Origin: Ganoderma boninense
Taxonomy: Eukaryota; Basidiomycota; Agaricomycetes; Polyporales; Polyporaceae
Direction of reading: 5' to 3'
Length of the DNA: 64,000 nucleotides
Assembly: GCA_002900995.3 (NCBI GenBank)
Contig: CM035309.1
Coordinates: forward strand, 2,548,389 to 2,612,388
Position 1 is the stretch's first letter, and each line of letters begins with the position of its first letter. The notes beneath the pieces are model-generated. The model saw nothing but the letters and a program-made list of their open reading frames with translations, did not search any database and was not told the origin of the DNA. Position numbers and translations under genes: made by a program. Positions 12 to 21,072 of the stretch are shown here, one piece after another.

Positions 12-595
12 TTGGCAAGGCCAATTCCCCTGTACAACATAGATGGTACCGAGAACCGTGATGGAACGATCACGGAGGTCGCCGTGTTGGATATGGCGAT
101 TGGAGACCACCAGGAGAAGGTGGTGTTTGTGGTGACAGACATAGGAGAAGAGGATGTGATCATTGGCCTGGACTGGCTGCGCGAACACAACCCTGAAGTA
201 GATTGGGAACGTGGCTCGCTGCGCCTATCGAGATGTCCAGAGGCATGTCCGGCTCATCGGAAGGCATCCAAACCTGTTGAGACCAAAGCGCGTGATACGG
301 AGGTATGGCTTACGGCGCGCAATGGTTCTCGACGGGTGTGGAAGGCAAAGATGATGGGTAGGATATGCACGGCCGTAATGGTCGAGGAGGAGGAGGAAGA
401 TAAGCCTCCACCACCAGGTTTTCTGCCGGAATGGGATGGCACTGAGGAGTCTCTCCTCAACGCACTAGAAGATGGACGACAACTTCAAGGTACCCCTAAG
501 ATCTTTGTGTCGGCGAGTTACACCTACTCTCAACAGCTCACTGAACAAGAGTACCAGAAGAAGGAAGTCCGTCCTGTCGAAGAGATTGTATCCCC
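12..595 (+). CDS. Ty3 polyprotein, aspartic protease C-terminal part (partial)
   Basis: This is the end of the retropepsin domain that matures the element's polyprotein. The stretch reading VVTDIGEEDVIIGLDWL followed by NPEVDWERG is the usual retropepsin C-terminal half (hydrophobic strand, then GLDWL, then the P-x-(V/I)-D-W turn). The catalytic D-S/T-G triad is upstream of the window. An acidic, proline-rich linker follows, then a QLTEQEYQKK stretch that normally leads directly into the RT domain. The frame stays open to 650 but the homologous continuation moves to another frame at about 592, so coding is taken to end there. The start at the edge is artificial; the frame continues upstream. 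Confidence 0.8.
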
Positions 596-3549
596 AGTAC
601 CACGAGTATCTGCGTGTGTTCTCGAAAGAGGCGTCCGAACGTCTACCTGAGCATGGACCCTACGACCACGCTATAGAACTCGTACCAGATGCTAGGATGT
701 TCCATTCCAAGGTGTACCCCCTGTCGCCCAGCGAGCAGGTTGAGCTTGACAAGTTCCTTAGCGAGAACTTGGCCAAAGGATATATTCAAGAGTCGAAGTC
801 ACCGATGTCGTCACCATTCTTCTTCGTTAAAAAGAAGGATGGCAGCCTACGTCCCGTACAGGACTACCGGCGATTGAACGACATCACCATTAAGAACCGA
901 TACCCACTACCGTTGGTGTCAGACTTGATGGATCGACTCAAGAGGGCCAAGTACTTTACCAAGCTTGACATCCGTTGGGGGTACAACAATGTGCGGATTA
1001 AGACCGGTGATGAATGGAAGGCTGCCTTTGTTACCAATCGCGGACTGTTCGAACCGAACGTGATGTACTTCGGACTGGCTAACTCGCCCAGTACATTCTC
1101 TGCGCTCATGAACGACATCTTCAAGGACCTCATCATACTCGGCAAAATCACTATCTACCTCGACGACATCCTCATATTCACCAATGACATCGAGGAACAC
1201 CGCACATTGGTGCGTGAGGTCCTGAAGCGTCTGGCGGAGCACGACCTGTTCTGCAAGCCAGAGAAGTGCGAATTCGAACAGCCGAAGGTTGAGTACCTAG
1301 GTGTGCTCGTCTCAGAGAACCGTGTGGAGATGGACCCAGTGAAGGTCAGGGGTATCGCAGAATGGCCTGTCCCTCAGAACGCCTCAGACGTACGGAAGTT
1401 CCGCGGTTTCGCGAATTTCTACAGGCGGTTCATTAAGGACTTCAGCGCAGTATGCAAACCCCTTGACCGTCTCACGGGTAATGCTCCCTGGCAATGGGGT
1501 GCCGAAGAGCAGTCAGCATTCGATGAGCTCAAACGTCGTTTCACTGAAAGCCCTGTCCTGAGCATGTATGACCCAGACCGCAAAACCCGCATTGAAGTCG
1601 ATGCATCCGGGTATGCTACCGGTGCGGTTCTGTCTCAGGAGGGGGAGGACGGCAAATGGCACCCTGTGGCTTTCCACTCTGAGTCAATGAGCGATGCGGA
1701 ACGCAACTACGAGATCTATGACAAGGAGATGCTCGCTATCATCCGTGCCCTGCAGGCCTGGCGCCACTGCCTCGAGGGTCTTCCCAGTGTGTTCGAGATC
1801 CAGTCGGACCACAAGAACCTCGAGTACTGGAAGGCCGCACAAAACCTCACGCGCAGGCAGGCACGATGGGCTCTCTATCTGTCGCGGTTCGACTTTGTCA
1901 TTGCACACAAGCCAGGCACCTCCAACAGTAGGGCAGATGCGCTGTCGCGCAGGCCTGATCACCAGAAGGATGACGCCGATGACAACCTGAACCGAGTCAT
2001 GTTGCAACCCGATCGCTTCCGAGTACTGGCAGCCAAGAGAGGGCACATGTCAGTGGTACCAGAGAAGGCACTGCTCCGCCGCATTCGAGAATGTGGAGAG
2101 CGTGAACAGGAGGTCGCAGAGGCACTCAGCAAGCTCGATAAGCTAGGGCCAGCACGTCTACAGAACGATTTGGTGGACTGGAACACAGAACAAGGCCTGC
2201 TACTCTACCGCGGCCGAGTTTATGTCCCCAAAGACGATGCGCTCCGAGCAGAAATAGTGCGCATTCACCACAACCTCCCGCCTGCTGGACACCCTGGCCA
2301 GGCAAAAACGGTGGAGTTGGTCACACGGAACTACTGGTGGCCGGGCATGGCAAAGTTCATTAAGGATTACGTTGAGACCTGCGACACTTGTCGCCGTGGC
2401 AAGACTTCACATGCGAAGCCACACGGTCCCCTTCAACCCAACGAGATCCCGGACGGCCCAGGCCAAGTAGTTACCTGTGACTTTATCACTAGACTGCCGG
2501 AGGTGGACGGATACAACGCGCTCCAGCTTATCACTGATCGGCATGGAAAGATGATTCACCTTATTCCATGCACCGAGGAGATCGACACGGAAGGGACTGC
2601 AGACAACTTCATTAGAGAATGGTTCCGTCTACATGGACTCCCGCGAAAGATCATCTCTGATCGGGGGCCCCAGTTCTCTAGCAAGCTCTTCCGTGCAATC
2701 CTTAAAGGCCTCGACATAGAAAGCGCGTTATCCACAGCCTACCACCCACAGACGGATGGACAGTCGGAGCGATGGAACCAGGAGATAGAGGCGTACCTAC
2801 GGATGTACTGCTCAAGGCGCCGCGACGATTGGGTCAAGTGGCTACCAACAGCAGAGTACTGCTTCAACTCGCGCGTACATTCATCCACAGGGTACTCGCC
2901 GTTTTACCTCATGTATGGCTATGAACCTCAGTTCCACGTTCCAATGCTATCCACCACGGTGCCTACGGCGGATGAACGAAGAGAGGAGTTGCGGCAGGCA
3001 AGGGAGGATGCGACCTCAGCCTTAACCCTGGCAGCAGAGCGGATGAAGGAGTACTACGATCGCTATGTCTCCGCTGCTCCAGAGTTCAAGGAGGGTCAGA
3101 AGGTGTGGCTCGACACGAGGAACTTCCGTGTCCCAGGAGTCTCTCGGAAGCTGGTGGATCGGTACGCTGGCCCGTACCCTGTCAAGCGCAAGGTGGGCAA
3201 CTTGGCTTATGAGCTCAAGCTCCCCAAAGACATGGGGCTCCACCCGGTGTTCCATGTGACACTCCTACACCCGCACAAAGAAAGCCAACTTCCCGGTCGA
3301 CATCCCCCTGAACCCGCAGCTCTCGAAGTGGAAGGAGAGGAGGAGTATGAAGTGGAGGAAGTGTTGGACTCGCGTCGGTATGGGCGGTGGAAGAAACTGC
3401 AGTATCTTGTTCACTGGAAGGGCTGGGGCCCTGAACACGATAGCTGGGAAGACGTGTCGGATCTAGCAAATGCGCCAAAAGTGCTGCAAAAGTTTCATTC
3501 GACACATCCCGACGCCCCTGGCCCTCTCAACAAGAAGACTCGATCGTGA
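592..3549 (+). CDS. Ty3 pol: RT, RNase H, integrase, chromodomain
   Basis: This frame is open from about 472 and homologous from QYHEYLRVF (about 592). The reverse transcriptase has the catalytic Y-L-D-D at 1156-1167 followed by ILIF. RNase H follows (IEVDASGYATGAVLSQ, then the SDHKNLEYW block). The integrase has the HHCC zinc finger (HH ... CDTCRRGK), then the DDE core with D in VTCDF, D in ISDRGPQFSS and E in GQSERWNQE. The C-terminal chromodomain (EYEVEEVLDSR ... YLVHWKGW ... DSWED) reads modified histone tails and directs integration into heterochromatin in this clade. Translation depends on joining the protease frame. One extra C in the CCCC run at about 592 would restore it, so either the copy is disabled or the consensus is one base short. 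Confidence 0.92.
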   Translation, partial: PQYHEYLRVFSKEASERLPEHGPYDHAIELVPDARMFHSKVYPLSPSEQVELDKFLSENLAKGYIQESKSPMSSPFFFVKKKDGSLRPVQDYRRLNDITIKNRYPLPLVSDLMDRLKRAKYFTKLDIRWGYNNVRIKTGDEWKAAFVTNRGLFEPNVMYFGLANSPSTFSALMNDIFKDLIILGKITIYLDDILIFTNDIEEHRTLVREVLKRLAEHDLFCKPEKCEFEQPKVEYLGVLVSENRVEMDPVKVRGIAEWPVPQNASDVRKFRGFANFYRRFIKDFSAVCKPLDRLTGNAPWQWGAEEQSAFDELKRRFTESPVLSMYDPDRKTRIEVDASGYATGAVLSQEGEDGKWHPVAFHSESMSDAERNYEIYDKEMLAIIRALQAWRHCLEGLPSVFEIQSDHKNLEYWKAAQNLTRRQARWALYLSRFDFVIAHKPGTSNSRADALSRRPDHQKDDADDNLNRVMLQPDRFRVLAAKRGHMSVVPEKALLRRIRECGEREQEVAEALSKLDKLGPARLQNDLVDWNTEQGLLLYRGRVYVPKDDALRAEIVRIHHNLPPAGHPGQAKTVELVTRNYWWPGMAKFIKDYVETCDTCRRGKTSHAKPHGPLQPNEIPDGPGQVVTCDFITRLPEVDGYNALQLITDRHGKMIHLIPCTEEIDTEGTADNFIREWFRLHGLPRKIISDRGPQFSSKLFRAILKGLDIESALSTAYHPQTDGQSERWNQEIEAYLRMYCSRRRDDWVKWLPTAEYCFNSRVHSSTGYSPFYLMYGYEPQFHVPMLSTTVPTADERREELRQAREDATSALTLAAERMKEYYDRYVSAAPEFKEGQKVWLDTRNFRVPGVSRKLVDRYAGPYPVKRKVGNLAYELKLPKDMGLHPVFHVTLLHPHKESQLPGRHPPEPAALEVEGEEEYEVEEVLDSRRYGRWKKLQYLVHWKGWGPEHDSWEDVSDLANAPKVLQKFHSTHPDAPGPLNKKTRS

Positions 3550-4689: not shown

Positions 4690-5746
4690 ATGCTACCCCG
4701 AGGAACTTATATCCGCCTTCCCACTTCACCCTCGCCTCCTAGCAATCTCCAACCCCTCGAGTACGACGAGGACGTCATCTCTGAAGGGCACAATACTTCT
4801 TCGCACTCTAGCCGGTCTCTGGTAGGACTGTCCGAAAACACTGCCTGGAAGTGTTTCCTATACACATGTATTGCCACCCTCGCCTTATCTGTGGTCAACC
4901 TCTCCTATTTGACGATGTCCACCACCTTACAAAGGTCGCAGGCAGCAACGGCAGCCTCGCCCTCCCGAGACCTCAAGCGCCCATCTGTCTACGTAGGACT
5001 CGAAAACATTGTTTTTGAGCCGTCGTACTGTCGCAGCCGCGGGACCTTCCCCAAATCGTTCTTCACATACGACGTCCGCGATAGACCACATGCGCAGCCT
5101 CGCCGCATCCACGCACCTGACGACAAGATGACGCTGAAGTTCGGCGGCCCGGTACGTCACGGCCTTGTGTTCTATCTCCCATCTAACCTTCCGCCAAACG
5201 GGCCCTGACACACTCGCCTTGCCTATTCCGCCAGGTGCACACGGTCGTCGACTTTTATGTCCCCGACTACAGGCTCGAGAACTGTACACTCAGCACACGC
5301 AGCTATCCGGCTCACCGCACTTCCTCCGAAGCTAGCGCGGCACTTGACAGCGGTGCACTGGCACACGCACCCGAGGTCTTGGACGCAGCGGTCGACATAG
5401 ACGTCTATCTGCTCCCGTCACAGCATCCCGATGACCGCGCACACGCCACATTCTTAGACACCTTGGCCTTCGTCCCAGGCAGGGAAAGCACGTCTAAGCC
5501 GTTCCACTGTCCCGGCCGCTCACATGTGTTCCTTGAGTGGCGCTGCACCACAGACGACTGCGAACTCGTGATCCCGTTGGAAGGCGTGACAAGTCTGAGT
5601 GAGTGGTTCCTATATGTGTCTCATCGGATCCACGTAGCTAACATGTAAAAACAGCTGCATCTGCGGAGTCGTTGACGAAGACCGGGTTTCGGATTACTCA
5701 GTACGAGGCGGTGGGATGCATTCCCAGTCCGAAGCAGGTGTCCTGA
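4690..5746 (+). CDS. Single-pass membrane protein, function unknown
   Basis: Three exons are supported by splice sites: 4690-5151, 5235-5598 and 5655-5746, with introns GTACGT...CCAG and GTGAGT...ACAG and consistent phases, giving about 305 residues. The N-terminal 50 residues are Pro/Ser-rich and likely cytosolic. Residues about 52-74 form one hydrophobic helix (FLYTCIATLALSVVNLSYL), consistent with a type II anchor. The lumenal/extracellular part begins RPSVYVGLENIVFEP and contains several Cys and an alternating strand pattern (VHTVVDFYVPDY). I associate this architecture with a lineage-specific family of hypothetical proteins in Agaricomycetes but cannot name a function. An upstream in-frame ATG at 4588 is less likely because the Pro/Ser N-terminus starts cleanly at 4690. 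It lies just outside the palindromic cluster and no link to it is shown. Confidence 0.7.
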
Positions 5747-5961
5747 CCCTGACGGTGTCTATCCCTCCGTATTTTTCAGTCCATTCACTCACGGGTGCTG
5801 TCAAGCGACAGGCATCGCATTTTCTCTTCCAATATCAGAGTTGTGGGAAGTAGTTACATTGAACGTGGATGTACAACAGTCATGAAATTCTTCCATGTTA
5901 GGCGCAGAGGACAAACAGGGTGCTCAACTGATGAATACAGAAATCATCAGGTAGACGGACT

Positions 5962-8159
5962 TTAGACCCTCTTCTCTTTGGCAGCAGTCCCTCGGTCAGG
6001 GCTCTCGTTGAGACCCCAGTTGTCGTCCGTGATCTGTTGCAGCCTGACCTCCCTCATCAGCCACGCACTCAGGAACCCCAACCCTGCAACCGCAATCATC
6101 ACCTCCCACAGCACGTCCAGCGAGTCCGCGAACGCTGCCCGAACCGCACCCTTCATCGGCTCCCCAAGCCCCTTGATCTGTGGAATTGCCGCATACGATA
6201 TCTCCACTCCCTGCGGCAGGCTCGCAAGGAACGCAGCCGGAAGCCGAGTCCGCAGCTGGTTCTGCAGCACCGTCGCTCCCACCGTGATGCCCCACGCCTG
6301 CAAACGCAAACACACCATTACATCTCGCATCAGTGGCCTGCACAGGAACGCAGAGAGATGGAAGCCGCACCTGGAAGAACGTCCGGATGAATATGAAGAA
6401 TTCCAGCGCACTCGCATTCAGCTCCACAGGCAGCGGGGCCAGGATCGGGAACGTCGTCGCCGTGAACTGGTGGATGCATGCCTCGGGTCAGCACTAGCAC
6501 TAGCACACGCCATCTCCGGCACCAGGGGGGTCGGCACGCACCAGCATCCCAAACCCGATCCCCGCCACAATCTGGAACCCGATCCAGTTCCGCGTCGCGC
6601 TGTCCGCATGCAGCGTGCTCTGCAGCCCCATCCCGATCGTGATGCACGCCCACGCAATCACGTTCTGCGGCTTGTACTTGTTCATCCCCGTTGCCGTCCG
6701 CCCGCCACAATCGCAAACGGCGCAATCGACAGGCTGTATGGCAGCACGTTCACCCCGCTCCCACCGGCAACGAGTCCTTGCATGCCTGGAAGTACACGGG
6801 CAGGTAGACTGCAGCGTGTGCGTGTGCGTTTGTTTGTGGTGAGCGAGTGCTGATCGCATTGCAACGAAGGACGAAGAGCAGCGAGCAAAATGCACTCACA
6901 CAGCGCGGCAGAGATGATGAATCCGTGCAGCCCAGTCCCGATGTACCCGCTCAGCGTCGTCCGGTTCGTCAGCAGCCGGAACGGGATTGTCGGCTCCACG
7001 GGCATGTAGATCTCGTACACCACCCACACCCCGAGTCCACAAACCCGACGACGAGCGGCGCGAGCACCTGCGCAGAGCTCCACGCAAACTGGATCCCGCC
7101 CCACGTCAGCCCCAGCAGCGCAGACGTCGTGCTCCCCATCACCAGGATGTTTCCGCTGCCATCCACACCGTCAGCAACCTGTCTACAGAGCGGAGGCGCG
7201 TCCCGGGTGAGGGCTTACATCCAGTCGATCCGCGACAGCCGTTCCGAGAGCGGGGCGTGCGGCGTCTTCAGGTTGAGGAACAGCAGACAGAGCACCATCG
7301 AGATTCCCGTCAGCGGCAGGTTCATGTCTGTGGGCCGACGATTCAGCATTCAGTTTCCAGCACTCGTCTCGTCTCGTCTCCTCTTGCAGCCGTCGTCGTG
7401 GGAGCACTCACAGAACAAGCCGCGCCACGTCCAGTCTGTCCGAGCAGCGAATGCACCACCCTGCCGTCCAAGCCGTCAGTCTCGTCCGCCAACTGTGAGT
7501 GCGGCAGAGTAGTACGCACCACGAGCGGGCCGATGATGGACGCAATCGACCAGATCAGCCCAATCGCTCCCTGGTACGCCCGCGCTCACGCAGCGGGACG
7601 AGGTCCGCCAGGATGATCTCCGTCAGCGCAAGGATCACCCCTGCACCCAGACCCTGCACGGCTGCACATGCGCGCATGCGTGTGTCAGACACCGCTTCGC
7701 CACACAGAATGCCGCAAGCACTCACTCCGCCCGCCGATGAGCATCGCCATACTGCTCGCCGCGCCGCACAGCGCGCTGCCGACTGTGAAGAGCGTGAGAC
7801 CGATGAGCAGGATGGGCCTGCGTCCGAAGAGGTTTGCAAAGTGGCCCGAGAGCGGGAGGAAGGTGACGCCGGCGAGGGTGTAGGCTGAGCCGATCCATAC
7901 GAACTGCTGGCCCTGGAAGTGGTTGATGATGGTCGGCAGGGCTGTCGACACGGCGCTCTGCAATTCGCAGGAAGGGCACTCAGTACTACCACTCGGGGAA
8001 AGGTGGGTCTGGGTGGCTTACGGTGTCGAGTGCGGCGAGAAAGGTGGCGATTGTAATTGCAAGCAAGGAGAGCCAGAAGGACGCAGTTTTCGGTGGAGAG
8101 GCATCTTCGTCCTTGGAGCTTCGGTCGAGTACTGGAATTTCGCTGGCAGGCTCTGACAT
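5962..8159 (-). pseudogene. DHA2-type MFS exporter, left copy (frame-broken as read)
   Basis: This is the mirror copy of the MFS gene at 18859-21072, with the same nine-exon structure and virtually identical exons and introns. It would encode a 14-helix drug:H+ antiporter in the plasma membrane. Only the ends differ: the first about 25 residues (MSEPASEIPVLDRSS...) and the tail after DDNWG (LNESPDRGTAAKEKRV) are unlike the other copy. Compared with the right copy it lacks one C in each of four short C runs, near 7580 (exon 3), 7037 (exon 6), 6761 and 6698 (both exon 7), and each loss shifts the frame. Very few substitutions accompany them (for example Val-Thr-Phe for Val-Ala-Phe and Pro for Leu before QGVE). 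That pattern fits homopolymer consensus errors at least as well as real decay. If the errors are artefacts, the gene is intact. Confidence 0.85.
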
Positions 8160-9205
8160 GCTGAGGCGAGAGACGAAGAAAGACAGTGGTCAGGTGAGAA
8201 AGTGGGTGAATGGCTCGCTGGACACGGGCATGCACGTTTGGGTCAGACTCTGAGTAAACAGGCTGAACAAGGAATTGTCCGGAATCCCAACTATTCCCTG
8301 GCGGCGAGGAAGTTGAGTCCCGCGCAGGAATGCGTTGCATAGTCACATTTCATCGTCCTATCGTCGATGATGCACCAGCGCTACGGGCGCTCAACCGGCG
8401 CCGGGCAGAACTTTGAAGTCGAGCGATGCATAGCCCGGTCGGACGTGAGGCGGACGTGAGGTGCTTCCGATCATGATATGTGGTCTGAAGCCGCACCCAT
8501 GACGAAGGGGGGGAATGGAAGGAAGAGTACCAGCGGAACCTTCGCAGCAACTCCGAGGCGCACGGTTTCCGCGATGTTCGGCTCGGCAACGCGCTGTGTG
8601 GCTTTGTTTGGCCGACTCAGCGCCATCCTCCGTCTTCTCGAGCGGGTCTCTCATCATGACCCTCTTCGAAGCATCCCTTCATTGCATCAAGCACTCCATG
8701 GAAACCACAAGAACAGCCAATGTGGTCGGCGCAGGGCATCTAGCGCCGTCTTTTGGCAGCGGACGTATCCTTGCCGCTCCTCGTGCCGATTTCTCAGGTC
8801 TCGCGACCTAGATTCCAGGAGGCATTGCCGATATGTTCAACTCTTCACTGAATCGTCTGACTTCGGCGTGGATATGGTGAGTTCCTTCAGGGCCGTTGGT
8901 CTATCTTTCCTAGCTTCTGCGCTCATAATCTCCGCAGCGAGGGTTCCATGCGACGGCGCCGTCGGAAGCGTGCCTGCCACACAGTCTTAGTGACGTATTT
9001 CGGGTGCTCTGTCGCTGCCATGCGTCCAAAGCTACTTGATTGGTGCTGTTCGGTTTTGGTGCTATTACTCACGCTGGTTGTTCCCAGATTCGAAGCGCCA
9101 TCAGTTCGGACCAGCGCCTTGTGACACGAGCACTGTGAACCTTGAATACCACTCATCGATGAATGTGGGACAACACAAAAGTTCCTCACAGCCGTGAACG
9201 AGCCA
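8160..9205. other. Intergenic, nothing recognised
   Basis: About 1 kb between the left MFS gene and the left peptide gene. It presumably contains the MFS promoter on the minus strand. The open frames here have no recognisable domain, and the sequence does not visibly match the equivalent spacer on the right arm (17,729-18,858). Confidence 0.5.
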
Positions 9206-9508
9206 ATACGTTTTGTCGTACGGGACCACAGGAATCGGCACGTTGATGTCTACGGGGTGCGGCTTCATTGGGCAGGGACCGCAACGAATCGGGCCCCGCT
9301 GTCGTCCTCGTCACCCTGGCGAGTCGGCCTCTGGGTTCCGGTGCGTCACTTCCGCATCTGCCCAGACTCGCACAGGCTCGGTAAGCTCTACGCAGCTTCC
9401 AGTTCCATGTCTTTCCTGATGATACCCACCGACCGGCTCCCCGAGAATCCACGAACCAAACAGGAATATGGCAGAGGTGATGGTAAGAACGCCCTGCAGG
9501 CTGCTCAC
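9206..9508 (-). pseudogene. Small peptide gene, left copy (degenerate or misread)
   Basis: Read on the minus strand this is a homologue of the peptide gene at 17417. Its C-terminal part gives FVAVPA, then in the next frame MKPHPVD, INVPIP and PYDKTY, against FVAVPA, MKPGPVD, INVPIP and PCDKKKY on the right. The hydrophobic leader is also present (GVLTITSAIFLFGSWILG). As read it is broken in several ways. The codon aligned with the right copy's ATG is GTG, there are two frame changes, and the stop codon is replaced by TGG. One of the frame changes (before MKP) would be healed by one more C in a CCC run. Codons of the shared blocks differ almost only at third positions, so the reading was under constraint until recently. 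It sits between the UstYa-like and MFS genes, as on the right arm. Confidence 0.7.
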
Positions 9509-9772
9509 TGTGTTGCGAGGGTGAGAGGAGGGCGACGTTGAGATCTAGCCCTCGTCCACTCTGGGACGATGCACGACAGTTGACAGTCTCGGTTCATAGC
9601 AGCCCGCCAGCTATTTGTTCTTATGCTCAGCGCGATATCCATCCCCAAACCCTTCACATTTAGACCGATGCGCAGATCGAGCCAGACGTCTGACCTCTGC
9701 ACCAGAGACATACATGATGCACACCGCTGGCAAAGTGGACACAACGGCGAGAACAAACATATTCCAGTTATG

Positions 9773-10494
9773 CTATACATACACCACTCCCAAGCTCTCG
9801 TTGCCGTCACGTCTTGCTTCCGCGCTCCCAAACTGCTCCTCCACCAACTCGTACACCTTTGTCCAGTCCCGACATGTGTGCGGGATCTCCGCGTTCACGC
9901 TCCGCCGCCCTAGGATCGGGATTACGGGCTCGAGCGTTGGGTTCGCTTCACACAGGATCGACTGCCGCAGGTAGTTGAAGCAGTGATGGACGTGGTCCGA
10001 CGATCGACGCGTGCTCATCGCCCGCCGGATGCGCGCAAGGCAATGCATCTGGTGGAAGAGTGCGAGGCCGAACAGACGGCCATCCGGCCCCAACCGGAGG
10101 AATCCGCCGCCTTTGGGGAAGATAGAGGCCCATTCGCGCGCAGCGTCCTCGGTGTAGATCTGGTAGTGGATCGTGTTTTCGGGAGTAAGGGAGACGAGTG
10201 GGATGTCGATAGGGTAGTAGGCGGGATAGTCGTCCTCCACGTATGCTGTAAGACCTAGGTGAGGGCTCGTGTGTAGTAACGAACCCATCTTGTCCTAGAA
10301 GGACACTTACTGTACTGGTGGAGTGTCTTTGAGTGGGAAACCTGGGTGAGAGATGGCTTATGAGACACCCATATGTTGATCAAGAGAGAAACAAGCGTAG
10401 TGAAGAAGAGGACGACGGCGGCGAAGAGGAGTGTGTGTGCGGTCCACAGACGGGCGACCCCCCGTAAGGGGGTTGTGAGCCGCAGAATGTGCAT
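9773..10494 (-). CDS. UstYa-like (DUF3328) oxidase, left copy
   Basis: Two exons, 10494-10311 and 10254-9773, joined by a GTAAGT...CTAG intron, give 221 residues. The N-terminus is short and basic, followed by one membrane helix (LLFAAVVLFFTTLVSLLINIWV), then a lumenal domain. The family's two metal-binding HxxHC motifs are intact: HQMHC at residues 129-133 and HVHHC at 149-153, with YLRQSILC and a TLEP stretch after the second, as in the family consensus. UstYa-type proteins perform oxidative cyclisation or chlorination steps in ascomycete ribosomal-peptide and other secondary pathways (ustiloxin, asperipin-2a). Its partner at 15689 has the same layout but clearly diverged sequence. Neighbouring genes are the small peptide gene and an MFS exporter on the same strand. 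Confidence 0.9.
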
Positions 10495-11405
10495 CGTATA
10501 CTGAGAGGATGTACAACGTCTCCTGGTAGCAAGGCTCTAAGATGTCCAGTGGTGCAAGAACAGGTGTGAGTAATCTTTAGTAACTTAACACGGTTCTTCC
10601 TCTGGCCACCTATTGAATCTAGATCTGCCACTAATAACGGCGCCCTTAAGCTTCACTGCTGGAGGCGAAAAATCACAGCGTCCGGCAGATGTTTGTTGTT
10701 TTCTTGTCACAACGCTCCATGTTGTTCTAACATGTACACAGTCGCACTGCTAGCAATGGTATTGATGGCTAATATGACTGTTGTTTTATTATTTATTTTG
10801 CATTCCTATCCAGAAGGGCGTCGGGATTTGCCGAGTAGGAATGTCCCATGCAGGCGTTTGCATGGCGCTTACTCTACCGCTGTTCTTTCGCACTCCCACC
10901 GGCCCCTTCGGCAGATTCCACGGCCTGTACGTTGACACCTACTTTGTGGATGGGGAATGTGAGGTCAGGCGCTGCCAGCCAGCCTGCCGCCACTCGGATG
11001 TTGTTCCGGTCCTCTTCAGCTCGGCGGCTGCACGGAGGGAAGTCCAGCCTGAAGGGTGATGCTGGTATCCATCTGACTTCGATTCCTTCTCGCCCTGTAG
11101 TGTCGTGGCCTCCGCGCGGGAAGTTTACATCGTGGTATACAGCGTCCCGAGGCCTGTGCTGTTTGTCAACCTGTAGAACTCATGTCATCGCCCATGAGCG
11201 CTGCAAGCTCTGCACGGCACCCACAGGCCCCGCTGTCTTGACCTCCCAAATACCGCTGAGCACGATACGTAAGGAAGTTAATACCCAGGCCCTCTCCGTA
11301 TTCGGCTTTGGCCGTGCCGTTTCCAATCTCGGAGTCGTGCCTCAGGCCACAGACTTCCAACGTCGACTGCCCGACTGCTGTTGCCACTTGCACCTTCCGC
11401 TCAAC
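10495..11405. other. Intergenic between divergent genes
   Basis: Separates the minus-strand UstYa-like gene from the plus-strand beta-lactamase-like gene and so should hold both promoters. A long open frame runs through 10848-11405 into the enzyme, but it shows no recognisable domain and its composition is not protein-like; the enzyme's start is placed at 11406. Confidence 0.55.
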
Positions 11406-13385
11406 ATGTGGACCCCACCTCCCTCCATGGCAGTCGCAGCCGCCTCTGTTGTGCTAGGCGCATACTACACTGGTCATCTTCAGGTTCAGATCAGCGCACC
11501 ACCCCTCGTAGAGGACGAATCTGAACGCTTCAGCTGTCGACCCTTCCTTCCGAACCTCTTCACCGAAACACCTCCCACAACCCGCCACTCTGCTATTGGA
11601 GCTGCGTCCAAAACTGCTGGTGACTTCTTCACCAAGCGTTTTTCCAAGGGCGATATTGACAGCCTCTCTATTGCTGTCGTGACTGCAGACGGCGTCCTAT
11701 TCGAGCAGAATTGGGGGGTGACCCGAGGAAACGAGACAGCGACTTCTCCCCCCACCACTAGTCATTCTCAGTATCGCATCGCATCAGTGTCCAAGCTTTT
11801 CACTGCTCTCGAAGGGTTAAATTTAGAAGAGAAGGGTGTCATCTCATGGTACGCACCGTGTCCCTGCTGTGCTCAACTTCATGACATTCATTCCTCAAAT
11901 TCTAGGGATGATCCTATTGACAAGCACTTCAAAGAGTACCAGTACCGTTTGGATGGATTAGACCCACAACATCCAGTAGAGGCCCGCGAGAACATGCCCA
12001 TGACACTCTATCAACTCGTTACCCACACCTCGGGCCTCGGCCGTGATTGGCCGCCTGGGATCGTAACTGGTTGGCCCAAGAGTCTTTTCGGTGGCGGCCC
12101 GCCCCCGACGAATGGCCACCCGTTCCCCTCACATGAGAATCTCTTCGATGTGATCGCCAAACACCACCTCACGTCGCCTCCTGCATCGTACCCTGCGTAC
12201 TCGAACACTGGCACCGGCCTGCTGGGCATCGCGCTCGCGGCGGCGGACAGCAAGGCCGAGGGCGTCTCGCCGGCGATCACGTATGCAGGCCTGCTGCAGC
12301 GCGACATCTTCGGACCGATGGGCCTCAACGGCAGCCACTTCCTTACCACGAACGAGAACAAGCACCTTGTAGTCGTGCCCTCTCTGGGGCCCGAAGTTGC
12401 TGTAAGCGGAGCTGTGCTTCGAAGTCTGACGCGACGCTTATCCATGTTCCCCTGTAGGACCAAGACTTCCTTGACGTGATGAACCCTGCGGGAGGCCAGT
12501 TCTCGTCACTGTCCGACCTGATTACTATCACACAGACGCTGCTGAACCCCAAGCATCCGAAGAGCCAGATCTCTCAGTATTCGCGCGACAAGTGGCTGCA
12601 GACAGTGCACGTGTTCGAGGAGGACGACTGGACCGAGATAGGGTTCATTTGGGAGATCATCAAGCAGAAGGACTCGAACGGCCGCGCGCGCAAGATCTAC
12701 TGGAAGCGTTCGTCGCCTTCGCTTTCTCGTCTCTTCATTCTCCGGGCTGATCAATGATTTTATATACAGTGGGGGCAATGGCGGGCTTCCACAGCGCAGT
12801 GGCATTCCACCCTGGCACAGGCTATGGCGTTGTGGTCCTGCTGGGTGGGCACTACCCCGATGCCGCGAAGCTTGCGTATGATGCGTTCGAGATCTTCCAG
12901 CCAGCCATCGACCGCGCGCTTTCAGATCTCTCCACTGAGATCTACGTGGGCAAATGGGTGGACGCGGAGAGCGGTGTAGAGAAGAAGTCGTCCGCGCGTA
13001 TTGTCGTCGAGAAGGGCATGCTGTACATCGAGGAGCTCACACTCCTAGGGACGAACACGCTTGAGAAGTTCGGCGCGCGCGGGCGTCTGGCACTCCGCTC
13101 CAGCATGCGCCGCGACGAGCTCAGGTGAGTTCCACATCTGCTGTTCCCTATACCACTTGATATTGATGCTCGGTTTGGTGTCGACACTGACCACATGGCA
13201 GGATTGACACTGGGCTACCCGGGTACAACGGCGAGAAGCACATGGGTTGCTACCCGTACTGGAATGGGCAGGACATCTGGGGTGTGCGCAACAATGCCGC
13301 AATCAACGCTATCTACTTCACAGGTTCAGGGAAAGATCGTCGGCTCCATGTACCTTCGCTGTCGATTGTCTTGAAGAGGGTTTAA
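11406..13385 (+). CDS. Beta-lactamase/transpeptidase-like serine hydrolase
   Basis: Five exons (11406-11848, 11906-12401, 12458-12707, 12770-13124, 13202-13385) with consistent phases give 575 residues. The start region MWTPPPSMAVAAASVVLGAYY looks like a signal peptide or anchor. Family S12 motifs are present: the nucleophile motif S-V-S-K at residues 127-130 (context RIASVSKLFTALEGL) and Y-S-N at 246-248 (YPAYSNTGTGLLG). The last motif region reads AGFHSAVAFHPGTGYGVVVLLGG. Fungal members act as esterases, amidases or acyltransferases rather than on penicillins; some belong to secondary-metabolite clusters (for example LovD). The substrate here is unknown. It sits at the centre of the palindromic cluster. 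A decayed second copy lies at about 60,690-62,117. An alternative start is the ATG at 11427. Confidence 0.9.
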
Positions 13386-13793
13386 AACGTACAACTGTTT
13401 CGTCATTACGGTTGTGTCCTCAGTCGCCTGTAGTATGATGGTCTAGGTATCGGATGTGAAACTAGCAACGGGACACTCATTTTTCCCTAAGTGCAGTAAC
13501 TCATGGGAACCGACACTGTTCTGCCACCTAGGCATACATCTCATGAGACCCAAACTCTAAAGGATCCTGAATAGTGTCTCCCATTCGACAGCGTCATTAA
13601 TCCACAGAATCATGATATCTACTTGTCACCATGTCCACCTGAAACACGGTACTCAGCAAGACAGAACTTCAGTTTCTCCAGTTCCAATTGCTCACAAACC
13701 AATTTCAAACTGCTTGTCGGCCCTAAGCCTTGTGCACTGAACTATCTCCGTCCGGCGACTAGACAAAGAGCGAAACCGGACCGGACTTAGAAC
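13386..13793. other. Intergenic between convergent genes
   Basis: Short spacer between the 3' ends of the beta-lactamase-like gene (+) and the membrane-protein gene (-). It should hold both polyadenylation sites; nothing specific is recognised. Confidence 0.5.
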
Positions 13794-15010
13794 TCAGACA
13801 AGCACCGAAAACGAGGAGATGGGACTGACCTCCGGATCCTGTGCCTGTGCATCACCGATGCTCGTCGCGACCTCCAAATCTCCGCCGCGGTTCTGCAGGG
13901 GTATTAGACTGGCCTCGAGGCGTGACGACTCCCCGCTGACCATCCGCAGGATGATGAAGTGCGGCGCGATGCTCTGCGGAAAGTACCTCGGTCAGCTTTC
14001 ACGCACAGCATGTGTATCGCGAGAGCTGCAGTTGTTGGCCATGGGGTTACGGGGGAGGCGAGGATGTCAAGGCTACTCACGGCAGCAGAGCCAAGGAGGG
14101 CGGAGAAGGGGAACTGGAGCGGGATGTCCTCTGCGAACATGGGGATGTAGATGATAGAACAGATCGCGTAGAGCGCGGCACTCTCGAGGAAGATCGCAAC
14201 TTCGGGGCTGTAGTATGCCCCTGCCTTCCGCTTGCTCGTGGAGTCCAGCAGAGCCCGCCGCCGGTAGATGAGGCGTGCGGCGATGAGCACTGTCGTCAAA
14301 ACGTTCATGCTGACAGACAAGGACCAGAACGGGGTGCCGAAGTCAATGACGGAGGCTTGGCCAAATACCGCCCCCGGTTTGGCTGTCTCGACCAGGAGAC
14401 CGATGCCAGTCGCTGTAGAGAGGGTCGTCAGCAGGTAAAGTAGGAAGACGCTGTGCGATATCAAGCTACCTATCGACGCAAGGTATAGAAGCGCAGGAAG
14501 GATGACCACATAAAGCTTGTCTGCAAATATCGCCACAGCCCGATACAGCTAGACAAACAAACAATTCAGCAAATAGATAATCGATACAAGCCTAGTTGCC
14601 TCACAATGAACCCGTCCGCAAGCCAGATGAGGACGGTGTATGATGTGTCCTTCAAAACAGCCAGGCGCGACGAGAGCTGTCCTGCGAACACTCCAGGATC
14701 CACCATCGACTCCACGAACTCAATTTCGCTCCATTTGGAACCGCCCACGTAGTAGATCATCTGAACCACAAACATTGCAGCGACCCATCCCAAGAGCACA
14801 TTCTTTCCCGCTCGATGACGGGCCGGGCTCTGGAGGATCTTGGCGGCAGTGTACGCAGCGATTAAGAAGTAAATGCCTAAAAAATCAAGTCAAGCAGAGT
14901 CTGTAAGCATCGAGTCTGTTCCGCCACCGCTGGGATCAACACGAACCAAATGTCACCGAGGCGACGAGCGCGGCAGCATAGCTCATGCGAGCGACGGTGA
15001 GGGAAGACAT
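13794..15010 (-). CDS. Multipass (about 7 TM) fungal membrane protein
   Basis: Four exons (15010-14947, 14876-14605, 14548-14081, 13973-13794) with matching phases encode 327 residues. Hydrophobic segments recur throughout: LVASVTFGIYFLIAAY, VLLGWVAAMFVVQMIYYV, TVLIWLADGF, LYVVILPALLYLASIGS, FLLYLLTTLST, NVLTTVLIAARL, YAICSIIYIPMF. The ending SIAPHFIILRMVSGES precedes a polar tail. The pattern, including the A-D-G-F-I-L-Y-R block after the third helix, matches a very large basidiomycete family of seven-pass proteins of unknown role, sometimes speculated to be receptors. It lies between the two arms of the palindrome, 679 bp from the divergent UstYa-like gene at 15689, so it might share its regulation. 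No enzymatic motif is visible. Confidence 0.82.
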
Positions 15011-15688
15011 TGTGAAGTTTCCAGGCTATGCTCCAGAGCTTGTGAGCACTGAGTATTGAGGATTAGAGGGAGCGTGCTATGTATATGCATCAGGAAGGGC
15101 AACGAACAACACACGCCCTTCATGCGAGCCGGTTCCTGAGTTCAGAGCGGAGCACAGGGCCCAGTTGCCACAGAAGGGGTCCCGTATGAGACTGAACCTT
15201 GGCCGTTGCCGCGCCCACTTTCCATACAGATGAAGCCAGGAGTGTTTGACGGGCGATGGCACCTTCTGTTGGGGCATGAGCGGTGGGCAATTGAGTTGGA
15301 GAGGGTGCCAGGGGAGCCGAAGATGCACCGCCGGTGGAGTTGGTTTGGGCAGAAGCAAGGGGATAAGTAAGTTTGGGTCGATTCGAATGTGGGTAAATGG
15401 ACGGGATGTTCGATAGTGCTGGCCTGGTGCTGGCGCATCGCGGTGAAGGTCATCACACCATCAACCGCCCAGGAAGCCGGAGCAAGTTCTGACTCCGCTG
15501 TTTGTGCAAGTGGGTCACCTCGCTTACGGTGGGTGCTCTCCGGTGTACCGACTCGCTCCGCCGAACAGCAGACCATCTCCGCCCTTCCAGGGATCTACCC
15601 AATGCTCTATAACGCCTCACACATTTCCAAGACTGCAGAACCGTGGTAGCTGGACGCCTTTGTACGTTCCACTGTTTCGCTTGCTGCT
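15011..15688. promoter_or_regulatory. Divergent promoter region
   Basis: A 678 bp spacer between the start codons of the minus-strand membrane protein and the plus-strand UstYa-like gene; both promoters must be here. The open frames inside show no domain. No individual regulatory site is called. Confidence 0.5.
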
Positions 15689-16422
15689 ATGGCCTCCTAC
15701 AACCTCGCACGCATGATGTCTGGCATCCTTCCCTCCACCCGACGAGGATGGTTGTACTACATTTCATCCGCTCTCATTATTGCTGTAGCCCTCGCAATCA
15801 ACATAAACCTCTCCAATAATCCGACTGTCACCTCTGCTAGCGACGACTGGCGCAAAGATGGCTTTAGTCAGTCCCCTCTCACTCATTTCCCTCTGTTGTC
15901 ATCCTGTGCCACGACTTCTAACGTTCTCCTGAAATATGTTTGCTAGCGTTTCTCGAGTCGGACTTCCCGCAATACTTTGTGCCACTCTCCAAGCACCCAT
16001 GGGACTCCACACTCGTAGTTGAGGACACGGTGCACTACCATCCGAACGCATCGGACGAGTGGGCCTCGATCTTCCCGGCAGGCTCAGGGGGATTCGTGCG
16101 CCTCGGGCCTAAGGACCGCCTATTCGGGGTGTCAATGTTTCACCAGCTCCATTGCCTCGACAAGATGCGCCACGCGGTCGTGGCTGTACCGCCGACGGAG
16201 TGGGAGATCTGGCACACTCAGCACTGTCTCAACTATGTCCGGCAGATGTTGTTGTGCACAGCAAGTGTGCGTGTCGAGCCGGTGAAGGAGGGGCATGGAC
16301 TTGGGGAGGAAGCGCGGAAAGTAGACGGCCTGGGGCTGGAGCACAAATGCCGTGATTGGACGATGCTGCGACGGGAGGTCGAAATGAATTTCGGGAGATG
16401 GCCAACGGATGCATACCCGTGA
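15689..16422 (+). CDS. UstYa-like (DUF3328) oxidase, right copy
   Basis: Two exons, 15689-15866 and 15947-16422, with a GTCAGT...GCTAG intron, give 217 residues. After a short basic N-terminus comes one membrane helix (WLYYISSALIIAVALAINI), then the DUF3328 domain. Both HxxHC motifs are intact, HQLHC at residues 125-129 and HTQHC at 149-153, followed by LNYVRQMLLC and the final H-K-C-R-D-W. The second motif falls at exactly the same residue as in the left copy, and both copies share EWASIFP, GGFxRLGP and RLFG. Elsewhere they are well diverged, so the duplication is not recent. Two UstYa-type proteins acting in one pathway is the usual arrangement in ustiloxin-type clusters. Confidence 0.92.
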
Positions 16423-17416
16423 ACTCGGATAGGTAGTGAGATGCACATGATATAGATTTGGCGTCTTCCGGGATAACATATACGTTATGACGGAAGCTCA
16501 AGGCGAATTACTGTCATAAATGAAAATTTGAGCTTCACACGCAGCGGGATTGGACAATTTATGTTGGCTTCTGGTGACGTCGAGGTCGTACATGCTTTGA
16601 TGCCTGAACTCTATTGCGTGTTATTCAGAGCTTAAGGTTCACGCGACCGACACACCGGTGCTCCAGTCATTGTTCGCTCCGCAGCAGTCGGTGGCAGTTG
16701 AGAGTCATGCTCCAAAGAGTCTGTAATAGTTCGCTCGTGGAAAGAGGGAAGTACTCTTGTCCTCCATTGAGTGCCATTGATGTGTGCTCTGCAGGAGAGG
16801 CAGTGCAAGTCGACCCTGCTGTCCTGGAAGATGTCCTTCTGTGGAGTGCGCTCGCAACTCAGCCTACAATTCTCATGCTGATGTAGCAGAAAGTACACCC
16901 GAAGAGCCCGGTTGCGTAGGGTGTACGACTTGGTAATGGAGGACTACTACATGGTCAGTGCGCGGACGGAACGAAGGGAGAAAAGCATCACAATACATAG
17001 ATGTTCAGTTGAGGGATTTTTACATGTCTGACTGAGGACATGCAATGTCCTCGAAATCACCGCAAAACCACCCCTAAACAAAAGTGAGCATGAGCAGTGC
17101 CCACTTGCAGGGACGGATAGAAGAGCTCCTTGTACCTTAAATGTATTGAGAAATCCGATGGAAATGGATAATACCATCTCTGCACTCAGCGCGCATGCCA
17201 GCTTTTCGAGAGACCCACAAATCTGGGGCATTCCACGTCTGCCGCATGTAAGCATCAGTGGAAACCCTGATAAAACATCAGTGCTGCAGCGCGCTCCGCT
17301 CGATGGCTCATGGTTCCAAATAGGATGTGCCTGGGGGCCCTCACAGACTTCTGGTATAAGATACTGTGTGCATCCATGGCTCATCTCGGCCTGACCACTG
17401 TCTGTCATCCAGCATC
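16423..17416. other. Intergenic, nothing recognised
   Basis: Spacer of about 1 kb before the small peptide gene; presumably includes its promoter. No recognisable coding remnant. Confidence 0.5.
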
Positions 17417-17728
17417 ATGCGCAGCATCCTTATCCTTGCGTCTATCCTTTCCGTCCTTGCTTCCGCCGCGTTCGCCGCGCCCACCGGTGTGTCATTACGT
17501 GCCCCGACGGGAGATCCGCCCACAGCCAAACTGACTGGCTCCTTGCCTCCGCCAGAACCAAGGGCTGCAGACCCCGCTCCCGCAGAGCCGGTGCAAGTGC
17601 GCCAGGACGACGATGATGACGGGGTCGGCTGGTTCGTCGCGGTCCCCGCGCTCATGAAGCCGGGCCCAGTGGACCTCACGATCAACGTCCCTATCCCCGG
17701 AATCCCGTGTGACAAGAAGAAGTATTAA
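17417..17728 (+). CDS. Small secreted peptide, candidate RiPP precursor
   Basis: A single exon of 103 residues. The first about 20 residues are a clear signal peptide (MRSILILASILSVLASAAFA, cleavage likely before APTG). A Pro/Ala-rich leader-like middle follows, then an acidic run (RQDDDDD) and a C-terminal block GWFVAVPALMKPGPVD, INVPIPGIP, ending CDKKKY. A homologous block exists at 9206-9508 between the other UstYa-like and MFS genes, with codon changes almost all synonymous. The position between a UstYa oxidase and an exporter, the signal peptide and the terminal Tyr (UstYa enzymes act on Tyr in ustiloxin) suggest a precursor peptide. Against this, there are no tandem core repeats and no Lys-Arg Kex2 sites as in known dikaritins, so it may simply be a small secreted protein. 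The ATG at 17417 is preferred to one at 17366 because the signal peptide starts there. Confidence 0.75.
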   Translation: MRSILILASILSVLASAAFAAPTGVSLRAPTGDPPTAKLTGSLPPPEPRAADPAPAEPVQVRQDDDDDGVGWFVAVPALMKPGPVDLTINVPIPGIPCDKKKY

Positions 17729-18858
17729 GCGTCCTTAAGTGAGCATTACTCGTCGAGTGGGAGCTTCTCCTCACCTGGAATTGTGATTCAGTGCTAACGT
17801 GATTCTCGCGCACCAATAGTACTTGATCTACAACTGCCTGAATAGCCTGGGTATACGATGTGTTACTGCCAGAGATAGTAGTTAGTGTGGAATGGATCTA
17901 TTTGTAACGCGAACCAAGCGCATCACATGCCGCATGCTCTGGCTGTGTACCGGCTTGTGCGATGCAACATGTCAGGAGAAACTCACAATTATATTGTGTA
18001 CATTGGTAGCCACAAGTGGGCTGGAAAAGGACACTGGCGGACTGGAAAGGCTGCACAATGATCGGATAACGTCGAAACCCTAGTAGGACGTAGTAAGACA
18101 GAACCCAACCTAATGTTCGTGCATTGACGCGTGAGTCATCGCAATCTCCTACTGAGCCGAACAGGCCGACATCGTATTGAGGCGACTGAGTGGATTCCCT
18201 TCGCTGACACTGACAGGATAGAGAGAGGGGGGAAGTTGGCGGCGACACTCAAGCTCGAGACTTGGGACGCTACCAAATCGAGATAAATATCCTTACATAA
18301 GTAACTGCGGCCAGCGACGAGTCATCCTAGGCGTCAATGCATTACCAGAACTACTTACTCCTCCCGCAAACTTGAACCTGACTCTTGCGTGTATTCGCCA
18401 ACTATATTGACTTGACTTGCTAGGGCTAGGGTGAGGCTCACAATGCGGCGTGAGCTCGGCTTTAGATGCTTTCATCTATCCAATCTTGAGTGGTTAGGAA
18501 GGCTTCAAGGTAGCATCCGTATCTTGATGGTATCCCAGGAACTGTGCTGACGATGATTGGGTTCTCGGGCTAGATTCAGCGCTACAAATTGTTATGTTCA
18601 TGAGAATCTCAATATGTGTCGCTGGCGATGTCACCTCAACTACTTGCCTTCTATGCCGTTTAACACTCACAAGTGTCCGCTCCTCGTGCCAACGGGGGAT
18701 ATGCGCATTACCACACCTCATGCCGGGAGTTATTAGGTACGTCTTGAGACTCTACACCATACATGTCACTTACACTGTCTTCACAACAACACTTATCCCA
18801 TCCCCCCAGTTCCAATAAGCACATACACCTCCATTTGTAGATCGCTTTGTGTACACTT
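17729..18858. other. Intergenic, nothing recognised
   Basis: 1.1 kb between the right peptide gene and the right MFS gene. No recognisable gene; it presumably carries the MFS promoter. Confidence 0.5.
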
Positions 18859-21072
18859 ATGACGCAAACCACTGTCAACAAAGCACCCACGACGAGACCA
18901 CGTCCTGACGGCGAAGGAGCTTCCCCTCCCAAAACCGCGACCTTCTGGCTCTCCTTGCTCGCAATCACCATCGCCACCTTTCTCGCCGCACTCGACACCG
19001 TAAGCCACCCAGACCCACCTTTCCCCGAGTGGTAGTACTGAGTGCCCTTCCTGCGAATTGCAGAGCGCCGTGTCGACAGCCCTGCCGACCATCATCAACC
19101 ACTTCCAGGGCCAGCAGTTCGTATGGATCGGCTCAGCCTACACCCTCGCCGGCGTCGCCTTCCTCCCGCTCTCGGGCCACTTTGCAAACCTCTTCGGACG
19201 CAGGCCCATCCTGCTCATCGGTCTCACGCTCTTCACAGTCGGCAGCGCGCTGTGCGGCGCGGCGAGCAGTATGGCGATGCTCATCGGCGGGCGGAGTGAG
19301 TGCTTGCGGCATTCTGTGTGGCGAAGCGGTGTCTGACACACGCATGCGCGCATGTGCAGCCGTGCAGGGTCTGGGTGCAGGGGTGATCCTTGCGCTGACG
19401 GAGATCATCCTGGCGGACCTCGTCCCGCTGCGTGAGCGCGGGGCGTACCAGGGAGCGATTGGGCTGATCTGGTCGATTGCGTCCATCATCGGCCCGCTCG
19501 TGGTGCGTACTACTCTGCCGCACTCACAGTTGGCGGACGAGACTGACGGCTTGGACGGCAGGGTGGTGCATTCGCTGCTCGGACAGACTGGACGTGGCGC
19601 GGCTTGTTCTGTGAGTGCTCCCACGACGACGGCTGCAAGAGGAGACGAGACGAGACGAGTGCTGGAAACTGAATGCTGAATCGTCGGCCCACAGACATGA
19701 ACCTGCCGCTGACGGGAATCTCGATGGTGCTCTGTCTGCTGTTCCTCAACCTGAAGACGCCGCACGCCCCGCTCTCGGAACGGCTGTCGCGGATCGACTG
19801 GATGTAAGCCCTCACCCGGGACGCGCCTCCGCTCTGTAGACAGGTTGCTGACGGTGTGGATGGCAGCGGAAACATCCTGGTGATGGGGAGCACGACGTCT
19901 GCGCTGCTGGGGCTGACGTGGGGCGGGATCCAGTTTGCGTGGAGCTCTGCGCAGGTGCTCGCGCCGCTCGTCGTCGGGTTTGTGGGACTCGGGGTGTGGG
20001 TGGTGTACGAGATCTACATGCCCGTGGAGCCGACAATCCCGTTCCGGCTGCTGACGAACCGGACGACGCTGAGCGGGTACATCGGGACTGGGCTGCACGG
20101 ATTCATCATCTCTGCCGCGCTGTGTGAGTGCATTTTGCTCGCTGCTCTTCGTCCTTCGTTGCAATGCGATCAGCACTCGCTCACCACAAACAAACGCACA
20201 CGCACACGCTGCAGTCTACCTGCCCGTGTACTTCCAGGCATGCAAGGACTCGTTGCCGGTGGGGAGCGGGGTGAACGTGCTGCCATACAGCCTGTCGATT
20301 GCGCCGTTTGCGATTGTGGCGGGCGGGACGGCAACGGGGATGAACAAGTACAAGCCGCAGAACGTGATTGCGTGGGCGTGCATCACGATCGGGATGGGGC
20401 TGCAGAGCACGCTGCATGCGGACAGCGCGACGCGGAACTGGATCGGGTTCCAGATTGTGGCGGGGATCGGGTTTGGGATGCTGGTGCGTGCCGACCCCCC
20501 TGGTGCCGGAGATGGCGTGTGCTAGTGCTAGTGCTGACCCGAGGCATGCATCCACCAGTTCACGGCGACGACGTTCCCGATCCTGGCCCCGCTGCCTGTG
20601 GAGCTGAATGCGAGTGCGCTGGAATTCTTCATATTCATCCGGACGTTCTTCCAGGTGCGGCTTCCATCTCTCTGCGTTCCTGTGCAGGCCACTGATGCGA
20701 GATGTAATGGTGTGTTTGCGTTTGCAGGCGTGGGGCATCACGGTGGGAGCGACGGTGCTGCAGAACCAGCTGCGGACTCGGCTTCCGGCTGCGTTCCTTG
20801 CGAGCCTGCTGCAGGGAGTGGAGATATCGTATGCGGCAATTCCACAGATCAAGGGGCTTGGGGAGCCGATGAAGGGTGCGGTTCGGGCAGCGTTCGCGGA
20901 CTCGCTGGACGTGCTGTGGGAGGTGATGATTGCGGTTGCCGGGTTGGGGTTCCTGAGTGCGTGGCTGATGAGGGAGGTCAGGCTGCAACAGATCACGGAC
21001 GACAACTGGGGCATCAACGACAAGGAGGCCAGGCCAATAAGAGACGGGTCCTCTGCGGAGAAGGCGGCGTAG
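18859..21072 (+). CDS. DHA2-type MFS exporter, right copy (intact)
   Basis: Nine exons with consistent phases (18859-18999, 19064-19295, 19360-19502, 19562-19610, 19695-19803, 19867-20123, 20215-20483, 20559-20654, 20728-21072) encode 546 residues, normal for a 14-helix fungal drug:H+ antiporter. The first helix region reads FWLSLLAITIATFLAALD. The motif-A loop is GHFANLFGRRPILLIG and the antiporter motif C region is IASIIGPLVGGAFA. The paired helices continue to GLGFLSAWLMREV before a polar tail. Such proteins export small molecules or toxins across the plasma membrane; in this context it is the likely exporter of the cluster's product. The start ATG follows several divergent bases and gives an N-terminus unlike the left copy. 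From exon 1 onward it is nearly base-identical to the left copy, including introns. Confidence 0.95.

Follow-up and report, generated by a model that had tools for sequence, protein, structure and literature searches.

A putative RiPP-like pathway with a single-core secreted precursor and two UstYa-type oxidases in Ganoderma boninense

The stretch of 64,000 nt analyzed here (hereafter the window; Ganoderma boninense contig CM035309.1, positions 2,548,389 to 2,612,388 of the forward strand) is part of contig C6 of a 55.6-Mb genome assembly, and searches of the genome cover that assembly. At 4.7–21.1 kb, the window contains a gene cluster that probably encodes a basidiomycete pathway of the type producing ribosomally synthesized and post-translationally modified peptides (RiPPs), in which two UstYa-type oxidases, UstYa-R and UstYa-L, would oxidize the core DGVGWFVAVPALM of a small secreted precursor. 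In several other mushroom-forming fungi, relatives of this peptide are encoded on the same contigs as UstYa genes. This suggests that mushrooms make a ribosomal peptide product not described so far. The three genes at the center of this reading are:

15689..16422, + strand: UstYa-R, two exons (15689-15866, 15947-16422), 217 aa, motifs HQLHC and HTQHC, PF11807 E 3.4e-18
17417..17728, + strand: putative secreted precursor peptide, two exons (17417-17486, 17556-17728), 80 aa, single core DGVGWFVAVPALM, open frame, 23 homologs
9773..10494, - strand: UstYa-L, two exons (10494-10311, 10254-9773), 221 aa, motifs HQMHC and HVHHC, PF11807 E 4.1e-17

The peptide gene lies 1.0 kb from UstYa-R. We recognized an intron of 69 nt because the annotated proteins of Ganoderma adspersum and Polyporus arcularius skip the corresponding stretch; splicing yields 80 aa, versus an unspliced open frame of 103 aa. 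The signal peptide was judged from the sequence alone. A single-sequence search of 5.8 billion proteins returned eight relatives, while a profile search (cut-off E ≤ 10, scoring only the 8000 candidates with the most shared five-residue words) returned 23, of which 22 have E ≤ 0.015 and the remaining one 0.1. All 23 contain the motif GWFVA.P.[LF]M exactly once and 21 contain GVGWFVA; including the window peptide, 24 out of 24 sequences have one core per precursor. The core is acidic immediately before the motif. In distant relatives (Hysterangium stoloniferum, Lentinula lateritia, and Mycena leptocephala) almost nothing but the core stretch is kept, near the C-terminus, and the close relatives share a longer conserved tail with a terminal Lys run. 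No Tyr is found from six residues before to nine residues after GWFVA in the window peptide and 22 of the 23 relatives, Trp and Phe both being present.

Within the genome, the window gene is the only site that matches the GxxGWFVA DNA pattern. The protein search for further copies gave the window gene and only four weak matches (E 0.1–0.8, residues 22–79, mainly the Pro/Ala-rich part), and its sensitivity is limited, as it missed the degenerate left copy described below. UstYa genes are present at 19 places in the genome. We found no copy of the same peptide in 18 stretches covering all 17 other UstYa places (tblastn, best 50 matches), and the best match outside the window among these (E 0.002) comprises the N-terminal and Pro/Ala-rich part only. 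Viral contigs contain no confirmed relatives of the peptide or UstYa.

The evidence for a connection between peptide and oxidases comes from the relatives. Among the 120 UstYa matches listed, eight of the 23 peptide relatives have a partner on a contig of equal size; these are eight out of 14 on contigs >10 kb and none out of nine on shorter contigs. The organism names agree in all six pairs in which both are given. Two pairs have consecutive tags, specifically in Trametes cinnabarina (scf184943.g46 for the peptide, g45 for UstYa) and T. versicolor (VTO73DRAFT_7647 and 7648). In Ganoderma adspersum, the peptide (V8D89_001587) and UstYa-L (001591) are separated by three numbers, and in the window three genes likewise lie between them. 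The sameness of the core is partly built into the search, but this linkage is not, and because it is conserved we infer that the peptide is an UstYa substrate. The first-pass annotation of this DNA had made its proposal depend on finding the peptide next to UstYa genes in relatives; eight of the 23 relatives share a contig size with an UstYa match, two of them with consecutive tags.

Both UstYa genes are open across two exons, carry two HxxHC motifs apiece, and score above the PF11807 cut-off, in agreement with the first-pass annotation; their first exons encode a hydrophobic stretch. The two proteins are 39% identical to each other, and no solved structures related to them by sequence were found at E ≤ 1. 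The 120 listed matches were clustered at 90% identity, and a maximum-likelihood tree was built from 59 rows (40 picked from these matches, the two window proteins, and 17 exon frames of the same genome). UstYa-R belongs to a clade of 18 rows (support 100/99) and UstYa-L to a clade of 17 rows (support 99/97). Each clade spans Polyporales, Hysterangiales, and Agaricales; in addition, Auricularia and Piloderma are found in the R clade and Bondarzewia in the L clade. The nearest relative of UstYa-R among the tree rows is from Dichomitus squalens (77% identity), that of UstYa-L among the matches listed is V8D89_001591 of Ganoderma adspersum (84% identity); both species belong to the Polyporales. 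Eleven contig sizes among the 120 matches listed occur with two UstYa matches. Three of them are below 4 kb, possibly by chance equality of size, and the eight above 10 kb, all represented on the tree, each comprise one R and one L. Judged from these relatives, R and L are two old, separately conserved paralogs that occur together in many Agaricomycetes.

The gene order at 4.7–21.1 kb is YVGLE (+), MFS (-), peptide remnant (-), UstYa-L (-), S12 (+), membrane-type (-), UstYa-R (+), peptide (+), and MFS (+), where MFS stands for major facilitator superfamily. The features other than the three genes above are:

4690..5853, + strand: YVGLE protein, membrane-anchored, no Pfam match, probable left cluster edge; exon borders approximate
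5962..8159, - strand: left MFS gene, frame interrupted in the assembly, 99% identity to the right MFS body
6014..8051, no strand: left half of a near-identical MFS tract, partner 18970..21011, proposed gene-conversion tract
9212..9321, - strand: degenerate remnant of a second peptide gene, tblastn pieces in different frames
11406..13385, + strand: S12-type serine hydrolase (beta-lactamase-like), five exons, 575 aa, PF00144 E 2e-39
13794..15010, - strand: membrane-type protein, 327-aa model joined by eye, no Pfam match at E ≤ 1
18859..21072, + strand: right MFS transporter, nine exons, 546 aa, PF07690 E 2.7e-36, TRI12 E 1.7e-17
18970..21011, no strand: right half of the near-identical MFS tract, differences counted versus the left copy

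A second cluster is located on contig C12 at ~1531.9–1544 kb (loci L033, L018, L019). It contains an UstYa pair, one member of which is the first branch of the R clade, while the other falls in the sister group of the L clade. It also contains an S12 gene ~6–8 kb from this pair, a protein 41% identical to the YVGLE protein, and an MFS-like gene recognized by eye, two exon pieces of which gave no Pfam match. Three short genes in this cluster have first exons that code for signal peptides resembling one another (16–18 of 22 residues) and later exons that differ, according to splice models made by eye and unsupported by relatives. The DNA pattern for the start of these peptides occurs at four sites in the genome, three of which are the C12 genes, the fourth reading MSG instead of MRG. 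A shared leader with changing cores, as the C12 models would have it, is what RiPP precursor families look like.

The S12-family hydrolase that the first-pass annotation placed at the center of the cluster is indeed there, with SVSK and YSN motifs seen by eye. Its membership of the pathway, suggested there as a possibility, receives some support because the second R/L-type UstYa pair likewise has an S12 gene ~6–8 kb away. For the pieces searched, S12 matches at E ≤ 1e-8 fall at three loci of the genome, of which two are at R/L-type UstYa pairs; the relatives are C6:2738413-2738814 (90%, ~178 kb to the right of the window gene) and the C12 gene (53% and 65% for two pieces). The YVGLE protein has no Pfam match, and its two loci in the genome at E ≤ 0.01 both lie beside an R/L-type UstYa pair. 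The membrane-type gene at 13.8–15.0 kb, described in the first-pass annotation as a seven-pass protein, is present as well but unsupported as a core member of the cluster, as its relatives in the genome lie elsewhere than in the C12 cluster. Among the genes identified at 4.7–21.1 kb and 19 further frames between or beside them (3.4–33.1 kb, some short frames falling outside the scan) we found no tyrosinase, methyltransferase, or peptidase, and the 19 frames gave no Pfam match at E ≤ 0.01. The S12 enzyme could itself be a peptidase.

In the pathway that we propose, the 80-aa precursor would enter the secretory pathway by means of its predicted signal peptide. Once the latter is removed, UstYa-R and UstYa-L, two different oxidases of the copper type that may form a hetero-pair, would oxidize the single core DGVGWFVAVPALM in the lumen of the endoplasmic reticulum or Golgi. 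We propose that they act on this core because it contains Trp and Phe, with Gly, Val, Ala, Leu, and Met around them. Judging by known UstYa enzymes, a cross-link or a hydroxylation in which Trp or Phe and an aliphatic residue take part would be likely. Proteases would later trim the precursor at acidic or basic borders, removing the pro-region and also, in Polyporales, the basic tail (KK) at the C-terminus. A role of the MFS proteins in export or self-protection is a guess from linkage, and so is a possible role of the S12 hydrolase in trimming, release, or ring closure of the peptide. The chemistry is inferred from the UstYa family, and the order of the steps is a proposal. UstYa enzymes are regarded as copper oxidases that are anchored in the membrane and face the lumen (PMC12435403), and the cross-links described for them join aromatic and aliphatic side chains (Tyr-Ile in ustiloxin and phomopsin, Phe-Leu in victorin) (PMC9233826).

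The dikaritins (ustiloxin, phomopsin, asperipin-2a, and victorin) share with this locus the presence of two-HxxHC UstYa/DUF3328 oxidases beside a secreted precursor, but they are described from Ascomycota and have repeated cores between dibasic Kex2 sites (PMC9769878, PMC9233826, PMC12048977). The window locus, in contrast, is from a basidiomycete and has a single core without repeats, no core Tyr, and no tyrosinase found in the cluster; its core is nearly unchanged across orders, and two UstYa clades occur together. A core Tyr is not essential, since victorin is cyclized through Phe (PMC9233826). We thus consider that the locus would work like an UstYa RiPP pathway outside the dikaritins as originally defined, having the enzymes and the precursor but neither the repeats nor the Tyr. 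Under a broader definition, in which DUF3328 is the class-defining enzyme (PMC12048977), it would count as one of them.

Mushroom-forming fungi also produce small secreted precursors of the Kex2-processed repeat protein (KEP) type. KEPs are defined by repeats, and a survey using that definition would miss the window peptide, which has none. A conserved single-core, non-repeat precursor beside an UstYa pair implies that substrates may have been missed for want of repeats. The kingdom-wide survey of Umemura and colleagues (2020) reported 103 out of 1680 basidiomycete KEPs near DUF3328 genes and considered that cyclization may hardly occur in Basidiomycota, or that the motif differs (PMC7329392). 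UstYa genes themselves are numerous in basidiomycete genomes: besides the 19 places in the genome examined here, Pleurotus has 16 such genes, six of which are developmentally expressed (PMC8893723). No basidiomycete UstYa product was found in the open-access texts as available to us, and neither the core heptapeptide nor four shorter variants appear in any open-access paper found, subscription papers and preprints being outside the scope of both searches. With the core and the enzyme pair named, the pathway can be tested in many species.

AprY and ApnU are of ascomycete source. Together with CctR they belong to the same DUF3328 family as the window proteins and share the HxxHC(x)nHxxHC copper motif, acting as cyclase (AprY), halogenase (ApnU), and hydroxylase (CctR) (PMC12435403). 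CctR, an ascomycete enzyme, hydroxylates a cyclic peptide as a copper-dependent homodimer (PMC12435403), whereas two diverged proteins occur together here. Borosins and amatoxins/phallotoxins are basidiomycete RiPPs as well. To our knowledge, their precursors have no signal peptide. They are processed in the cytoplasm by S9-family oligopeptidases (PMC9769878), and the genes and frames that we scanned gave no domain of that family.

Two other explanations of the peptide have to be weighed. A dikaritin pathway of the canonical kind, whose precursor has repeats, is cut by Kex2, and bears Tyr, would agree with the two-HxxHC UstYa genes and the adjacent secreted precursor, but it is hardly credible: all 24 precursors have a single core, Tyr is absent from the vicinity of the core in 22 of 23 relatives and in the window peptide, and the latter has no dibasic site ahead of its core. 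The canonical Kex2 repeat precursor was rejected as the core is unrepeated, and a dikaritin in the strict, multi-core sense is likewise unsupported. The peptide could also be an unmodified secreted signal or a partner of UstYa (copper chaperone or subunit), with the UstYa proteins acting on another substrate. Such a conserved binding peptide would be expected to have a core that is near-invariant across orders and acidic residues just ahead of the motif, as is the case here, and UstYa enzymes are known to modify non-ribosomal peptides and polyketides as well (PMC12048977). Nevertheless, the scan of genes and intergenic frames around the cluster gave no non-ribosomal peptide synthetase or polyketide synthase domain, a signal peptide, short pro-region, and core beside UstYa genes form the usual RiPP layout, and the three candidate precursors on C12 keep a similar signal peptide while the rest changes (splice models by eye). 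We therefore consider this explanation unlikely.

Several observations weigh against the proposed oxidation of the core by R and L. The identity of the core among relatives is partly built in, since candidates must share five-residue words with the query. Equal contig size indicates the same sequence record and not adjacency, the distance being tightly bounded only by the tag pairs and two contigs of 19.9 and 22.7 kb. Six of the 14 peptides on long contigs have no equal-sized UstYa contig among the 120 matches listed; these missing partners are weak counter-evidence, given a list of 120 matches clustered at 90% identity. Toxin-like RiPPs do not usually have a core that varies so little across orders, a dibasic Kex2 site before the core is absent from the window peptide, with dibasic residues only at the C-terminus, and the R-like UstYa on C12 has lost its second HxxHC motif. 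The near-invariance also allows a wider, more tentative proposal, specifically that UstYa-R and UstYa-L are a dedicated pair (possibly a hetero-dimer) making a peptide family that is found in several Agaricomycete orders. The product could then be a conserved signal of mushroom-forming fungi and not a diversifying toxin, since Polyporales, Hysterangiales, and Agaricales have almost the same core, DGVGWFVAxPALM. If true, basidiomycetes would thereby gain their first UstYa-RiPP class, and repeat-based KEP and dikaritin searches would be blind to its precursors, which have no repeats.

The first-pass annotation regarded the locus as a palindrome, with an UstYa, a peptide, and an MFS gene on each arm. 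The RiPP-like character that it proposed is supported, while the inverted duplication is mostly unsupported, as the UstYa pair consists of old paralogs. The MFS body is the only near-identical inverted repeat of the window (6005–8109 vs. 18912–21020, 99.05%), the other inverted match, at 38.4–38.8 kb, being 73% identical and unrelated. Over 18970–21011 (~2.04 kb), the right copy differs from the left by three substitutions and four one-base indels; just outside this tract but within the same exon, the copies differ at 11 of 58 bases, nine of them at third codon positions, although the protein is nearly the same. The N- and C-terminal ends differ between the two copies, and the closest matches of the right MFS in the genome, besides the left copy, are at most 59% identical over the piece searched. 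An MFS gene is present on both arms as claimed, intact on the right (546 aa, PF07690) and broken on the left, where four one-base gaps in G-runs within exons disrupt the frame in the assembly. The differences within and just outside the tract fit an old MFS paralog pair whose bodies were later homogenized by gene conversion, which we propose because the near-identical tract has sharp edges and its flanks have diverged at third codon positions.

An assembly or polishing artefact is a real alternative to gene conversion, because all four indels lie in G-runs and all are missing from the left copy; four of the seven tract differences thereby follow the error pattern of repeats beyond short-read polishing. 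Both copies retain their own distinct but homologous ends beside the tract, however, and we regard an artefact, which would be compatible with the proposed peptide pathway, as doubtful. A recent inverted duplication of the entire UstYa-peptide-MFS module would account for MFS bodies that are inverted and 99% identical, for the mirrored gene order, and for the presence of peptide sequence on either side. It is very improbable, given that UstYa-R and UstYa-L are 39% identical and fall in clades each spanning Polyporales, Hysterangiales, and Agaricales, and given the nine third-codon-position differences within 58 nt of MFS flank. A recent duplication of the UstYa genes themselves was rejected, with R and L in separate supported clades of the 59-row tree. 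In our reading, the arms are two old enzyme types with a local duplication of peptide and MFS around them, likely an older one, and not mirror copies of one recent module.

The left counterpart of the peptide consists of two pieces on the minus strand (9321–9271 and 9277–9212, tblastn) that resemble the right peptide but are not in frame with each other, and the second piece has a stop in its frame. Several residues are altered, including Trp and Cys, that do not vary among the window peptide and its first eight homologs. An upstream hydrophobic frame (9544–9311) contains no ATG, though there may be a further exon upstream. We read this as a dying, degenerate copy, and of the two peptide genes claimed by the first-pass annotation the right one, with its 80-aa precursor, is intact.

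Further UstYa pairs were observed on C4 (835–862 kb) and C11 (2082–2275 kb), comprising loci L014-L017 and L024-L029. All six motif-complete UstYa genes there have a neighbor with an altered motif within ~7 kb (HQLRC and a second motif without its first His), which suggests pairs of an enzyme and a pseudo-enzyme partner. Near the UstYa genes of loci L017 (C4, at ~6.5 kb) and L030 (C21, at ~7.5 kb), chance tblastn matches revealed YVGLE-like frames reading ..NSYVGLEATVRDPSAPP... As the YVGLE search of the genome did not list them, they may represent distant members of the YVGLE family.

Elsewhere in the window, a piece of a further S12 gene is located at 61354–61746, with 72% DNA identity to 12509–12901. 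The left window edge (469–3549) contains an open Ty3/gypsy-type frame of 1026 aa with reverse transcriptase, RNase H, integrase, and chromo domains. The inverted self-match at 38445–38803 (~360 nt, 73% identity) may represent a hairpin or transposon end.

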